From the NCBI GenBank assembly GCA_005776395.1, contig SXPJ01000085.1, positions 1-33,383 of the forward strand: 33,383 nt of DNA, in the 5' to 3' direction. Under the pieces are notes generated by a model. That model saw only the letters and a list, made by a program, of their open reading frames with translations. It did no database searches and had not been told where the DNA came from. Position numbers and translations under genes: made by a program. This DNA is from Bdellovibrionales bacterium (GTDB taxonomy: Bacteria > Bdellovibrionota > FAC87 > UBA2466). Shown here one piece after another: positions 10,639 to 30,790 of this stretch (within the stretch, counting starts at the first letter, position 1; every line of letters starts with the position of its first letter).

Positions 10639-10729
10639 CAGCAGTTCTCGGTGACCTCACTTTCATATCCAAACTTGAATGACTCCGCTTTTTACCATGC
10701 GCTGTAGCTCACCTAAAACTGCTGTTGAT
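10639..10729 (-). repeat. Short copy of the miniature inverted-repeat element (internally deleted relative)
   Basis: The two ends, 10639-10654 and 10709-10724, form a 16-bp inverted repeat with two mismatches (CAGCAGTTCTCGGTGA against CAGCAGTTTTAGGTGA). Read on the minus strand, 10729-10655 aligns closely with 28305-28376 of the longer element, sharing for example ACAGCGCATG and GTCATTCAAG. The 10639 terminus matches the right terminus of the longer element at 15 of 16 bases. No flanking target duplication is visible. It lies between the TrmB-like and carboxypeptidase genes. Confidence 0.75.
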
Positions 10730-10790: not shown

Positions 10791-11720
10791 ATGAGGTTTC
10801 TATTTACTTTCTTGTCTCTTTTTATTTCTATTCAATTATTAGCCTCTCCTGAAAGTGACTCTGGAATTTTCGGCCCCACTTACAAAAACATTCTTAATGA
10901 AACTGAAAAATGGGCCAACGAATATCCAGAACTGGTTCAAATTATCGATTACGGTAAAAGTGTTAAGGGCCGGCCATTAAGAATGGTCTTGGTCATGAAA
11001 CAAATGCATGTAAAATCCAGGCCTGCATTTCTTATGAGCGGCAGCACTCATGGAAATGAATTTCTAGCTATTGAAACTAGCCTGCCACTTAAACTTTTAG
11101 AGAAGCAAAGAATTCCAGGAGCAGTTAAAAATTTTTTAGACCATGGCGGTGTTTTTGTTTTTATCCCCATTCTAAATCCCGACGGCTATGAAAGTAGAGA
11201 GAGAGAGAATGCAAATGGAATCGATCTCAATCGAGATTGGGATCTTGCTGAAACTGGATTTAAAGGGTTTACCCAACCCGAAACACAACAGCTCGCAGAA
11301 TATTTAGAGAAGCTCACCCAACCCCCTTTTAATTTAAATTTTAAGGTGACGGTGGATTATCATTGTTGCGTGGGAGCGATTCTATACCCTTGGTCTTATA
11401 CGAAAAAAAAACTCCCCGAGCCCGATCTTTCTCATCATATAGAACTCGCAGAAATTGCAAAAAAATTTCTATCCATTGACTACGGAACGACGGGCGAAAT
11501 TTTAGGCTATTATCCCCAAGGAACCACCAAAGATTACTACTACTCCAAATACAATTCGCTAACCTACACCTATGAAGGTAGGTATCAAGAAGAGAATAAA
11601 TATCTCGAGTCTCATGTGAAATGGTGGGAAGCCATAGTAAGCGACACTCTTAAACGAATTACATTAGCTAGTGAACGACTCACGCTTCTTAACTTCCCTT
11701 TTTTGGTGAGTTTTTTTTAG
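10791..11720 (+). CDS. Exported M14 family zinc carboxypeptidase
   Basis: The 309-residue product has a signal peptide (residues 1-19) and a complete M14 catalytic set. Zinc ligands are His87 and Glu90 in THGNE and His191 in VDYHCC. A substrate-binding Asn-Arg pair lies in GIDLNRDWD, and the likely catalytic Glu262 is in TYTYEGRY. It should remove C-terminal residues from peptides, or cleave peptidoglycan stem peptides, in the periplasm or outside the cell. The Cys-Cys after His191 is unusual and could form a disulfide. A GGGGG site lies five bases before the ATG. The C-terminal tail ends in a hydrophobic run encoded over a possible terminator. It converges with smc. Confidence 0.9.
   Translation: MRFLFTFLSLFISIQLLASPESDSGIFGPTYKNILNETEKWANEYPELVQIIDYGKSVKGRPLRMVLVMKQMHVKSRPAFLMSGSTHGNEFLAIETSLPLKLLEKQRIPGAVKNFLDHGGVFVFIPILNPDGYESRERENANGIDLNRDWDLAETGFKGFTQPETQQLAEYLEKLTQPPFNLNFKVTVDYHCCVGAILYPWSYTKKKLPEPDLSHHIELAEIAKKFLSIDYGTTGEILGYYPQGTTKDYYYSKYNSLTYTYEGRYQEENKYLESHVKWWEAIVSDTLKRITLASERLTLLNFPFLVSFF
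11678..11718 (+). terminator. Possible terminator overlapping the end of the carboxypeptidase gene
   Basis: ACTCAC (11678-11683) can pair with GTGAGT (11706-11711), which is followed by seven more T. The stem is only 6 bp and the loop 22 bases, so the structure is weak. The T-run is the stronger part of the evidence. Confidence 0.3.
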
Positions 11721-14944: not shown

Positions 14945-14947
14945 TTA
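14945..14947 (-). other. smc: In-frame TAA within smc
   Basis: The sequence reads GTG GGA TAA CGA GCC on the coding strand. Everything before and after is in one frame of 1,202 codons with no other defect. A single change AAA to TAA would explain it. Confidence 0.9.
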
Positions 14948-26792: not shown

Positions 26793-28265
26793 TTATAGAC
26801 TATAGTAATCTCGTACGACCTGAAGATCATCGAAATACTGCTTTTGTGTGCCTATGATTTGATAATTTTCGTGGCCTTTACCTGCAATTAGAACAATATC
26901 CTCAGGTCTCGCCAGTTTAAGAGCTAAATAGATAGCCTCTCTTCGATTAACTTCGCGATGGTAGACAGTCTTCTGTCGATCAATACCAGATTCCATATCG
27001 TTAAGTATCGCTTCAGGATCTTCGGTTCTAGGATTATCTGAAGTAGAAATCGTTATTTCGCTGTAACTAGACGCTACTTTAGCCATTTTGGGGCGTTTCG
27101 TTTTATCTCTATCTCCGCCACACCCAAAAACGGTAATAATTTTGCCACCTGAATCCCCTCGCAACTTACAAAGCGCTGACAATACATTTTCTAAGGCATC
27201 GTCTGAATGAGCATAATCTACAAAAATGTTGGGATAATAGTCTCCTGAAACGGCTCGTGATAACCTTCCCGGAGCTCCATTAGCCTTTTGTAAAGCTGTA
27301 ACTGCTAATGATAGATCCTGGTTTAACCCCTCCACGACACCCAAAGCGCCAAGAATATTCATTAGATTATGAGCTCCAATAAGAGGAGAGGCTAAGTCCA
27401 TAACTCCATGAGGCGTTTTAATTTTTGCAGTAGTTCCACTCTTCTTGAAATTCGATTCAAGGACGTAAAAATCGGCCTTGTCTTGCGATAAAGAAAAAGT
27501 GATCTTATTTGAAGCTTGTGAGGTTTTAAGAACTTTTTGAGCTTGAGAATCATCTATATTAACCACTACGCAAGCAATAGAATAATCACGAAACAACTTA
27601 AGCTTAGCTTCAAAATAATGATCCATCGTTTGATGGTAATCTAAATGATCCTGAGTAAAATTCGTAAATACGGCAACTTTAAAATCAGCCCCTTGAGTTC
27701 GGGCTTGATCTAATGCAATAGACGAAACCTCCATGGCGCAAACTTCAACTCTTCGCTGCAACATGCGATGAAATAAAGCCTGAAGCTCGATGGGACCTGG
27801 GGTCGTTAAATTAGAATCCAAAGTTTCCTGAGCAATCTTATTTTTAACGGTGCCAATGAGTCCAGTTACCAAACCCATTTCAGTCCAGATCTGATCCAAT
27901 AAAAAGGCCGTGGTGGTTTTTCCATTAGTTCCAGTAACTCCAACTAAATTGAATTTTTCAGTTGGACCTCCCCAGAATCTAGATGCGATCTTACCTACAA
28001 GATCCCGGGTCGATACCACTTTAATTAATTGACCCTCAATACATTCATTATAATTCTTTTCAACTACTGCAAGGGCTCCTCGGCCTAAAACAGATGAAAC
28101 AAACTGATGGCCATCCGATTGGGTACCTTTCACCGCAATAAACAGACTTCCCGATTTAGCTAATCTAGAATCTTGCACAACTTCAGAAATGTTAGATTCT
28201 AAATTAACTCGAGTTTCTACGATTTCAGATGGATATAAAAGTTCTTTAAGAGTTTTCACGATCAA
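26793..28265 (-). CDS. murE: UDP-MurNAc-L-Ala-D-Glu:meso-diaminopimelate ligase
   Basis: The 490-residue Mur ligase adds the third stem residue. ISTSDNPRTEDPEAIL, near residue 408, holds the DNPR motif that marks specificity for meso-diaminopimelate, so the wall is probably of the ordinary Gram-negative type. The P-loop is GVTGTNGKTTTAFLL near residue 112, and the carbamylated-lysine region and NFTQDHLDYH are present. The first start is TTG at 28265 and a GTG follows at 28259. Neither has a good ribosome binding site. The upstream gap to ftsI is filled by a transposed element, which probably displaced it from its original upstream context. Confidence 0.94.
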   Translation of the reverse strand: MIVKTLKELLYPSEIVETRVNLESNISEVVQDSRLAKSGSLFIAVKGTQSDGHQFVSSVLGRGALAVVEKNYNECIEGQLIKVVSTRDLVGKIASRFWGGPTEKFNLVGVTGTNGKTTTAFLLDQIWTEMGLVTGLIGTVKNKIAQETLDSNLTTPGPIELQALFHRMLQRRVEVCAMEVSSIALDQARTQGADFKVAVFTNFTQDHLDYHQTMDHYFEAKLKLFRDYSIACVVVNIDDSQAQKVLKTSQASNKITFSLSQDKADFYVLESNFKKSGTTAKIKTPHGVMDLASPLIGAHNLMNILGALGVVEGLNQDLSLAVTALQKANGAPGRLSRAVSGDYYPNIFVDYAHSDDALENVLSALCKLRGDSGGKIITVFGCGGDRDKTKRPKMAKVASSYSEITISTSDNPRTEDPEAILNDMESGIDRQKTVYHREVNRREAIYLALKLARPEDIVLIAGKGHENYQIIGTQKQYFDDLQVVRDYYSL

Positions 28266-28297
28266 ATTAGAGATACAAGGAGTTTTCGAATCTGTCT

Positions 28298-28306
28298 ACT
28301 TAGGAT
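28298..28306. repeat. Target site duplication, left copy
   Basis: ACTTAGGAT directly abuts the left terminus of the element at 28307 and is repeated exactly at 28537-28545. Confidence 0.85.
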
Positions 28307-28536
28307 CAACAGTTCTCAGTGAGTCACAGCGCATGATAAAAAGTGAAGTCATTCAAGAATTTGGATATGAAAGTGGAGCGTACAGCGACTGTCCTTGGAG
28401 CCGGTAGCCCCACTTTCATATCCAAATTCTTGAATGAGCCATCATAAAATTACCCCAATGGCACACCGAGACTTTGCGAAAAGGTTTTTCTAGTGCTCTT
28501 CAATTAACCTCAGAATTTATTCGCCGAGAACTGCTG
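28307..28536. mobile_element. 230-bp miniature inverted-repeat transposable element between ftsI and murE
   Basis: The ends, CAACAGTTCTCAGTGA (28307-28322) and the reverse complement of 28521-28536 (CAGCAGTTCTCGGCGA), agree at 13 of 16 bases. Exact 9-bp direct repeats ACTTAGGAT flank it (28298-28306 and 28537-28545), the expected mark of transposition. It encodes no transposase; the longest frames are short and unlike any known protein. It carries a perfect 28-bp palindrome. The left 70 bases are closely related to the short copy at 10639-10729. It lies inside the cell-wall operon and starts one codon from the ftsI stop, so it is transcribed with these genes. Removing it and one duplication leaves an ftsI-murE gap of about 40 bases. 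Confidence 0.88.
28349..28437. repeat. Perfect 28-bp palindrome with 33-base loop inside the element
   Basis: Bases 28349-28376 are the exact reverse complement of 28410-28437, including GGATATGAAAGTGG and its partner. In the ftsI-to-murE transcript this makes a very stable hairpin. On that strand a T5 tract (CACTTTTTATC) follows within about a dozen bases, so partial termination or RNA processing is possible. Confidence 0.9.
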
Positions 28537-28545
28537 ACTTAGGAT
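28537..28545. repeat. Target site duplication, right copy
   Basis: ACTTAGGAT abuts the right terminus at 28536 and matches 28298-28306. Its last base is also the last base of the ftsI stop codon TAA. Confidence 0.85.
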
Positions 28546-30491
28546 TAGCTATTAGGAGAAAAATAGAGACTCACTTCGCTTCGCGGAGATATGATGGTTC
28601 CTGATTCTGGATACTGTTTATCCACAAAACCCTCGCCTGCCATTTTAACCGAGTTAACGTGTTCACCCATCACTCTTAGAGCCTCTCTCATGCTGAGCCC
28701 TTTTAAGTTAGGCATGTACCACACTCCATCAGCAGCCACCCTAATTTCAGGCATTGGAATCAGTTCTGGCATTACTTTATTTTGGGGTAACTGAACTAGA
28801 TTTTTAACAACTGCTGTTCTGGGAACTCGATCCATAATTTGAATCGATCTCTCAGCAATTCTTTTAAAAACAGGAGCTGCAGTCATCCCTCCATAATACG
28901 GAGTCCTAGGTTCATCAATCATAACCCCAATAAGTAACTCTGGTTTATCGGCTGGAAGAAATCCAATAAACGATGAAAGATACTTTTTACTATCATAACC
29001 TTTTCCTGGTTCATATTTCTGTGCAGTACCCGTTTTTCCCGCAACTTTAATCCCCTCGATTCTAGCCTTAGTTCCAGTTGCTTTATCCCCTTCTGTCACA
29101 GAAACCAATACATCTCTCATGGCTTTTACTGTGCCGGAACTTAAGATTTTTCTTGCAGTAGTATTTTGCAATCCAGGAATCTCAACTTCGCTCAACATAA
29201 TTTTAGGACGAACCCAGTAACCGTCATTTGCAAACGGCGCATAGGCCATCACCATTTGAAGAGGAGTAAATGATATACCTTGACCAAAACCCACTGTAGC
29301 TTGATAGAAAGTTTTCCAAACTTCATCACTTTTAAGAACTGAAAAGATCTCACCCGGAAGAGAGATCTCTGTTTTTTTTGTTAAGTTAAACTTCTCCAAA
29401 GTTCGCTTTATTCGTTGAACACCTAAAGTTAGAGCTACCTTTGCGGCACCTGCATTACTTGAGTGTTGAATAACTTCAGCTAAAGAGATCTTCCCAAACT
29501 TATGATTATCCTCAGCCTCATGAATAACCATGTTTCCAATTTTCAAATGCCCCATTTCACAATCGACCTTAGACTGAGCATTGAGCAATCCCGATTCTAT
29601 CGCCTCTGCAGCAAAAATCGGCTTTAGAGTAGAGCCAGGCTCATACAAATAAGAGGTCCAAAGATTGGTTGCATGGGCCGCGGCAGACTGATTGGGATGA
29701 TTTGAATCCAAAAGAGGCCTCTGCCCCATGGCAATAATTTCACCCGTTGCAGGATCAAGCACGATAGCCATAATATTTTTTCCGCCGTGTAATGCCTCGG
29801 CCTTCTCAAGCTCTTCATCAACCACATGTTGGATTCTTCGATCTAATGTCAACCGAACTCCATCTTTAGAATTCAAACTTTCTCCGTAATTTTTTTCCAG
29901 ATAACTTAAATTTCCCTTACCATCTCGAGGAATTGCCATCTTGCTTGGAGCATCGATTAACTGACTATTGAGAAAAAGTTCAATTCCAGCGATTCCATTA
30001 CCATCGATATCTGTAAATCCAAGCGTTTGAGCAGCTAATGTTGAATTTGGATAGAAACGATGATTTTCGGGCTCCACAAAAACCCCATGAAGCTTTAGTG
30101 CTATTAGTTTAGTTGCTAACTCTTCCGTTAGTTGACGATGAATCCAAACGAAGTTTTTCTTTTTATCAAGCTTTTGCAACCATTTCTGAGGAGTTCCCCC
30201 CAAAACTCGAGCCAATGAAATGGCTGTTTTTCGACGAGCTTTAATCATTTTAGGGTGAGCAAAAACAGAGACTGAGGGCATGCTAACTGCCAGCTCTTCC
30301 CCATTTCTATCCAGAAGCGGCTGTCGGTACTGAATCTTTTTATTTACTTTGTGATACTGACGCTGAGCTAAACCTTCAAGTCCGGAATCCTTCCAGAGCT
30401 GCAATTGAAAGAGACGAAGTCCAATTAAAATAAAAAAAGCCACAAAAGAAATATAAACAAAACCGAGACGAATCTTGATCCACTGGCCCAT
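28545..30491 (-). CDS. ftsI: Septal peptidoglycan transpeptidase FtsI (class B PBP) with PASTA domain
   Basis: The 648-residue protein cross-links peptidoglycan at the division site. It has one N-terminal membrane segment (about residues 9-27), a PBP dimerisation domain, and a transpeptidase domain with S-T-L-K near residue 284 (EPGSTLKPIFAA), S-S-N near 343 and K-T-G-T near 483 (VAGKTGTAQKYE). A PASTA domain at about 577-645 (MPNLKGLSMREALRVM onward) is absent from enterobacterial FtsI but known in FtsI/SpoVD-like proteins of other groups. The ATG at 30491 overlaps the ftsL stop as TGATG; a TTG one codon earlier is less likely. A transposed element begins just after the stop. Confidence 0.94.
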   Translation of the reverse strand: MGQWIKIRLGFVYISFVAFFILIGLRLFQLQLWKDSGLEGLAQRQYHKVNKKIQYRQPLLDRNGEELAVSMPSVSVFAHPKMIKARRKTAISLARVLGGTPQKWLQKLDKKKNFVWIHRQLTEELATKLIALKLHGVFVEPENHRFYPNSTLAAQTLGFTDIDGNGIAGIELFLNSQLIDAPSKMAIPRDGKGNLSYLEKNYGESLNSKDGVRLTLDRRIQHVVDEELEKAEALHGGKNIMAIVLDPATGEIIAMGQRPLLDSNHPNQSAAAHATNLWTSYLYEPGSTLKPIFAAEAIESGLLNAQSKVDCEMGHLKIGNMVIHEAEDNHKFGKISLAEVIQHSSNAGAAKVALTLGVQRIKRTLEKFNLTKKTEISLPGEIFSVLKSDEVWKTFYQATVGFGQGISFTPLQMVMAYAPFANDGYWVRPKIMLSEVEIPGLQNTTARKILSSGTVKAMRDVLVSVTEGDKATGTKARIEGIKVAGKTGTAQKYEPGKGYDSKKYLSSFIGFLPADKPELLIGVMIDEPRTPYYGGMTAAPVFKRIAERSIQIMDRVPRTAVVKNLVQLPQNKVMPELIPMPEIRVAADGVWYMPNLKGLSMREALRVMGEHVNSVKMAGEGFVDKQYPESGTIISPRSEVSLYFSPNS

Positions 30492-30790
30492 CAAAATTTC
30501 TTCCCTTCTAAATTCTGCGCTTGCAACCTTAAATTTTGCCCTAATTTGGGTGGCTCTAAACCCATCTGAGAAGCTAAGGATTCAAGCTTTTTCGGAGAGG
30601 TCAGTTTCAACCAACGAACCCTCAAAGCTTGAGTTTCCTGCTCTAATTGACGATATTGCCGTTCTTGTCCGACAAACTGATAGGTGGATTTGACCGTTAA
30701 GGCTCGAATCCAGACTAGAGTTATTGCCAAAACAAAAACTGACACCAAAAGAATGGTCAACTCCCGCTTGGGAGAATTAGTTTGATTCAT
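30491..30790 (-). CDS. ftsL: FtsL-like cell division protein
   Basis: The 99-residue bitopic protein has a short cytoplasmic tail, one membrane segment (about residues 12-32), and a periplasmic coiled coil rich in Gln, Glu and Leu (RQYRQLEQETQALRVRWLKL). It closes with LTSPKKLESLASQMGLEPP, the usual FtsL-type pattern before the C-terminus. FtsL sequences are poorly conserved, so the call depends on topology, length and position between rsmH and ftsI. Its stop overlaps the ftsI start by one base. The rsmH stop lies 54 bases upstream. Confidence 0.85.
   Translation of the reverse strand: MNQTNSPKRELTILLVSVFVLAITLVWIRALTVKSTYQFVGQERQYRQLEQETQALRVRWLKLTSPKKLESLASQMGLEPPKLGQNLRLQAQNLEGKKF

Follow-up and report, generated by a model that had tools for sequence, protein, structure and literature searches.

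Between ftsI and murE in a Bdellovibrionales genome lies a transposed, non-autonomous MITE of 230 bp with a 9-bp target duplication, and we show that target choice in its family is non-random, the transposase-distal end facing, in this host, a predicted σ70-like promoter. Such elements probably derive from an ISNCY-type insertion sequence (IS) with a DDE transposase, are mobilised in trans and insert at a fixed offset and orientation relative to predicted promoters. Three features go beyond the original prediction, which was made from the window sequence: an internal hairpin with 31-bp arms, an 86-bp relative at 10639–10724 and the promoter rule, whose spacing and orientation were not visible there because only one copy was at hand.

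The window, meaning the whole 33,383-nucleotide stretch analysed, is all of contig 81 in a host genome of 2.76 Mb and 106 contigs. The 230-bp insert (28307–28536) has no ORF (none of at least 100 aa in the ORF list of the window) and stands between exact copies of ACTTAGGAT at 28298–28306 and 28537–28545, the 9-bp target-site duplication. Its inverted ends, CAACAGTTCTCAGTGA (28307–28322) and CAGCAGTTCTCGGCGA (28521–28536, reverse strand), match at 13 of 16 positions, and position 28545 is used twice, ending both the right duplication and the ftsI stop codon. Size, ends, repeats, lack of an ORF, the ftsI–murE position and the shared stop-codon base had all been described beforehand, and each was found in place. 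The element has no match in Rfam, and a promoter/terminator scan gave one weak terminator-like site and no σ70-like promoter in or around it. The parts of the locus, and a second family member in the same window, are:

10639–10724, minus strand: 86-bp internally deleted family member, sharing the family ends
26793–28259, minus strand: murE (Mur ligase), from Pfam domains; probable start GTG at 28259–28257, aligned with relatives
28270–28275, minus strand: TATCTC, predicted as the probable −10 of murE with a 17-nt spacer; conserved in relatives
28293–28298, minus strand: TAGACA, predicted as the probable −35 of murE; conserved upstream of murE in relatives
28298–28306, no strand: left 9-bp target-site duplication ACTTAGGAT, murE side; an exact repeat, other copies carrying their own duplications
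28307–28322, plus strand: terminal inverted repeat at the promoter-facing end, the counterpart of the parent IS's right, transposase-distal end; orientation from comparison with IS loci
28323–28348, plus strand: subterminal stretch at the promoter-facing end, which reads GAGCCACAG... in other copies; from copy comparison
28349–28379, plus strand: internal hairpin arm 1, 31 bp, from complementarity and paired changes with arm 2
28380–28406, no strand: hairpin loop, 27 nt, in the less common (A) orientation, the reverse of that in 22 of 26 copies
28407–28437, plus strand: internal hairpin arm 2, 31 bp, from complementarity and paired changes with arm 1
28438–28520, plus strand: transposase-side subterminal region; its outermost stretch (in most copies AATAAATTTTGAGGCTAATTGA, read on the opposite strand) agrees with the left end of the host's own IS fragments
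28521–28536, minus strand: terminal inverted repeat at the transposase-side end, from the inverted-repeat match
28537–28545, no strand: right 9-bp target-site duplication ACTTAGGAT, an exact repeat
28545–30494, minus strand: ftsI (penicillin-binding transpeptidase with PASTA domain), from Pfam domains

The predicted murE −35, TAGACA, overlaps the duplication by one base, its first being the duplication's last. Four of five same-genus relatives conserve a promoter-like TRGACA...TGTAT(c/t)TC ahead of murE. In the window this sequence stands between the element and the murE start codon, and murE would therefore not require the element or read-through from ftsI; its transcription probably begins at a promoter of its own immediately past the insert. 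The original prediction had argued that insertion into this operon without loss of murE implies an element that is transcriptionally permissive or supplies a promoter or RNA function; a supplied promoter or RNA function is not supported, as murE has its own promoter-like TRGACA-17-TATCTC and the scan found no σ70-like promoter in or around the element.

At least 26 more near full-length relatives of the element are present in the host genome, at 81–91% identity. In most of the 26 copies measured, 8 or 9 of the 9 duplication bases match, and the duplicated sequence differs from copy to copy. These further relatives, mostly with duplications of their own, mean that the window element is not a chance arrangement, and they bear out the proposal that it is a transposed, non-autonomous one; it is short, lacks a transposase ORF, has terminal inverted repeats and a target duplication, and belongs to a set of multiple dispersed copies. 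A genome search for the ends, suggested earlier as a check, found CAGCRRTTCTCGGTGA (at most one mismatch) 95 times, against one occurrence of a reversed-pattern control. Shorter derivatives of 72–190 bp carry the same ends. The 86-bp member of the window has no flanking 9-bp duplication; its promoter-facing end (10724) faces a zinc carboxypeptidase gene at 10791.

Two other arrangements were seen among these copies. A second element type has the same ends and a different long hairpin (AAGGGACTTGTTTTACTTAAAAATAG...; L038:1057-1189, L049:1211-1400, L055:142-, L058:1474- and L060:1705-), with one copy inside a transposase gene fragment and TTGAC at position 18 (counted outward from the element) in some. 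At L043:1291, L057, L062, L065 and L069:1233 the MITE is interrupted, each time at the 9-bp site ATAAAATTA, by another element with ends ATACCTGGCCCTCTATA, which suggests that the composite of MITE and ATACCTGGCCCTCTATA-ended insert has itself transposed.

A search of 19 other genomes, including five from the same genus, did not recover the 230-bp sequence; its single match, of 22 bp, was at chance level. Four same-genus genomes gave one terminal-repeat match each in two and none in the other two; the one exact match in a same-genus relative (L230), with no element visible around it, was put down to chance. At the ftsI–murE junction three same-genus relatives (G001, G002 and G004) have gaps of 57, 65 and 100 bp with no element. 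The empty site that the original prediction had asked for is thus present, and what it had named as refuting evidence, the same 230 bp conserved with the same flanks in distant relatives as an ancestral part of the operon, is not what these genomes contain. A second empty site lies upstream of pyk: there, TTGCCG and TATGAT, equally spaced, are common to four same-genus relatives, none of which has the element at this place. In G004 this site reads CTATCTTCAATAATAGGTACTTATTGCCG, unduplicated, and in the host CTATCTTCAATAATA, then the element, then TCAATAGTAGGTACTTATTGCCG. Because the relatives keep the promoter uninterrupted, the comparison shows the predicted pyk promoter to be older than the insertion.

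Several host contigs end inside IS copies whose sequence opens with CAGCAGTTCTCGGTGAATAAATTTTGAGGCTAATTGA and leads into a DDE transposase gene; these fragments share with the MITE the 16-bp terminal repeat and about 20 further bp. Two more contig ends carry internal transposase fragments, of which one contains a stop codon and the other is interrupted by another family member, and no intact IS or transposase gene was found in the host assembly, its fragments being cut by contig ends, interrupted by stops or broken by insertion. They are 52–63% identical to a member from Saccharobesus. Full-length relatives with terminal repeats CAGCAATTCYCGGT and exact 9-bp duplications were recovered from Saccharobesus (ends CAGCAATTATTGGT, duplication TAAATAAAG) and from Anabaena and Calothrix (ends CAGCAATTCTCATT); the full-length IS that the original prediction had suggested looking for exists in other bacteria, the host genome yielding fragments only. 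A scan of genome contigs collected 80 IS loci from many phyla, with an exact 9-bp duplication in about 25, mostly at CAGCAATTCYCGGT-type ends. The Gloeothece copy (WP_013335080.1) is annotated 'ISNCY family transposase'. Comparison of ends and duplications identifies the putative mobiliser of the window element as this unclassified (ISNCY) IS group, which has terminal repeats CAGCAATTCTC..., a DDE transposase and, in relatives, 9-bp duplications; its members are mostly annotated as hypothetical protein or generic transposase.

The transposase, of about 420 aa, matches PF01609 (DDE_Tnp_1) in 24 of 25 members of the group, and no curated IS family model was reached at its cut-off. Its predicted structure (mean pLDDT 91.6) has Tn5 transposase as best PDB match (E 9.5e-10, 13% identity), and a PDB sequence search found nothing. 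Tn5 makes 9-bp duplications, which the Tn5-like predicted fold fits. The IS4 family, which includes Tn5/IS50, was rejected in spite of this closest structural likeness, its curated model scoring 20.8 bits against a cut-off of 152 for the first member; ISAs1 was set aside likewise (22.5 and 15.7 bits against 70). Among 25 transposase relatives, no IS1 or IS5 model was matched at E ≤ 0.01, which removes IS1 and IS903 (IS5). Of the families guessed at first, the Tn5-like one thus survives at the level of predicted fold, and IS1 and IS903 do not. REP/RAYT elements make no target duplication and use a Y1 (HUH) transposase, and were rejected given the exact 9-bp duplications and DDE transposase seen here.

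The insertion rule is counted outward from the element: 9-bp duplication, 8 bp, −35 hexamer at position 18, about 17 bp, and −10 at position 41. At the GAGCCACAG end, the neighbouring gene starts away from the element in 21 of 22 scorable copies, about 30–200 bp off; the opposite end has no gene-orientation bias. Aligned by the element boundary, the 49 promoter-facing flanks have T at position 18 in 42 cases, TTG at 18–20 and a TATAAT-like sequence at 41–46. Fixed consensus scoring of these flanks gave z = 10.2 for TTGACA at 18 and z = 6.8 for TATAAT at 41, against −1.5 and 0.2 at the opposite end. Position 18 holds at least 7 of 12 consensus bases in 36 of the 49 flanks (mean at other positions, 3.9), none of 20,000 random-offset draws reached the observed mean score, and leave-one-out scoring placed the best site at exactly 18 in 24 of 49. 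The 86-bp member obeys the rule, with a predicted TAGACT-16-TAGAAT at position 18. The window's 230-bp copy is an exception: the predicted murE −35 starts at position 9, not 18, and so 9 bp closer. After the main peak, position 9 is the commonest offset, with 7 or more of the 12 consensus bases in 9 of 49 flanks, which we do not call significant in view of how many positions were tried.

The offset recurs outside the host. Among the ten nearest full-length ISs in other bacteria, right ends give a −35 z of 5.1 at position 18 (mean score 7.20 against 4.54) and left ends 1.7, with a weak −10 (z = 1.6). More distant members show a promoter signal sometimes, a Parabeggiatoa copy carrying TTGACA-17-TATAAT exactly at 18/41. 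Psychromonas has one IS copy only and hence no within-genome replicate.

Bacterial MITEs such as Correia, Chunjie and MITEAba12 resemble the window family in being short, mostly intergenic and without an ORF, with terminal inverted repeats, duplications and a parent IS with the same ends. Chunjie-1 is 235 bp long (PMC10969869); MITEAba12 makes 9-bp duplications with no sequence trend in them, and its presumed parent ISs have different ends from those here, GGCTTTGTTGCACAAA (PMC6382973). In the available text of these sources the target preference of MITEs is given as intergenic (as a 2024 review has it for prokaryotic MITEs, PMC10969869) or AT-rich (PMC10969869, PMC6382973), not as a fixed address, and no fixed spacing or orientation to host promoters is described, unlike in the window family. 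The literature searched held no description of a promoter rule for the ISNCY group, searches on ISNCY returning no paper.

We propose the following course of events. The MITE would be an internally deleted ISNCY-type derivative, moved in trans by a DDE transposase that makes 9-bp duplications, within an insertion complex directed to promoters. The IS family may originally have favoured targets with a −35-like TTG placed 9 bp beyond the duplication, a feature seen across its members. In the host lineage this preference would have sharpened into promoter specificity, most plausibly through contact with promoter-bound RNA polymerase or its sigma factor, or because promoter DNA is read over a longer stretch: a taste for −35-like sequence does not by itself account for the −10 signal, the one-sidedness or the gene orientation, which suggest that the host-lineage complex probably senses promoters as such. 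If transcription starts about 7 nt past the −10, the insertion point would fall between about −52 and −44, counted from the predicted start. The core promoter would stay whole and no gene would be broken, which could explain how the host tolerates so many copies, among them one between the essential ftsI and murE.

A rival account, which we regard as possible though rather unlikely, is that recognition lies with the transposase, which would directly read a −35-like hexamer 9 bp past the duplication, the promoter bias arising from where that motif occurs and from loss of genic insertions. An alphaproteobacterial IS relative (L203–L228, 26 near-identical copies) speaks for it: most of its copies sit inside long open frames; TTGACA-like sequence peaks at position 18 to either side, with no clear −10, and other distant ISs likewise have a peak at 18 on both sides. 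The alphaproteobacterial pattern indicates that not all of the family is promoter-specific and that at least some members can do without RNA polymerase. For the host copies, however, recognition of the hexamer alone leaves the −10 at 41, the one-sidedness and the 21 of 22 gene orientations unexplained, and −35-like hexamers without a promoter are expected to be common in intergenic DNA.

Selection after insertion could be invoked instead, with randomly placed copies retained where they increase or insulate the downstream gene's expression, and MITEs with promoters or protein-binding sites that alter neighbouring genes are indeed described in the available text of one source (PMC10969869). We judge this improbable, since base-pair precision at 49 sites beside unrelated genes, together with the same offset in the ISs of other bacteria, is hard to produce in this way, and no promoter was found in the window copy.

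Insertion directed to promoters would have an analogue in eukaryotes. Yeast Ty1 and Ty3, and other elements that target RNA polymerase III genes, insert beside, not inside, transcription units. Their targeting is a subject of PMC5911963; the action is analogous, but these are eukaryotic retrotransposons with no parts in common with the window family. We give about even chances to a bacterial counterpart of the Ty1/Ty3 strategy, in which promoter-bound RNA polymerase or sigma, or a transposase surface reading −35 and −10 together, would steer a bacterial IS group to one exact spot and orientation upstream of σ70 promoters. Within the open literature, subscription papers and ISfinder being outside the scope, there was no precedent for promoter-targeted or fixed-distance IS insertion. 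If true, landing at a fixed distance in one orientation would explain dozens of tolerated copies in a 2.8-Mb genome and would suggest a safe-harbour insertion system; copies could mark promoters in uncultured bacteria, and guidance of a bacterial transposase by RNA polymerase becomes a testable question.

The internal hairpin (arms 28349–28379 and 28407–28437) is 97% complementary. Across copies, 23 cells have both arms changed to another Watson–Crick pair and 27 of 804 scored cells are single mismatches, of which 11 are A–C and 8 G–T, with no sign of G–U tolerance. The loop orientation is opposite in four of 26 copies, the window's included; on trees these are four separate changes, a single clade being rejected (p-AU 0.0022). 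The loop flips are shown by this comparison, and we infer that the arms exchange sequence by strand switching or recombination, which would explain both complementarity and flips without RNA selection, flips being what strand switching in a quasi-palindrome is expected to give. That the insert is a conserved, immobile regulatory RNA of the ftsI–murE operon (an attenuator or processing hairpin) would suit its very stable fold (z = −7.8) and the paired arm changes, yet is extremely improbable, as the element occupies dozens of unrelated loci with target duplications, matches nothing in Rfam and has single-arm mismatches with no preference for G–U over A–C, and as the loop flips and its absence from the junction in relatives rule out a conserved-RNA reading of the hairpin. 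The flipping loop also serves as a warning that paired stem changes can arise from DNA-level exchange, not from selection on RNA structure.

Elsewhere in the window, smc is split by an in-frame TAA (14945–14947, minus strand) into parts of 140 aa and 1048 aa in the same frame, reflecting either a sequencing error or a real nonsense codon.
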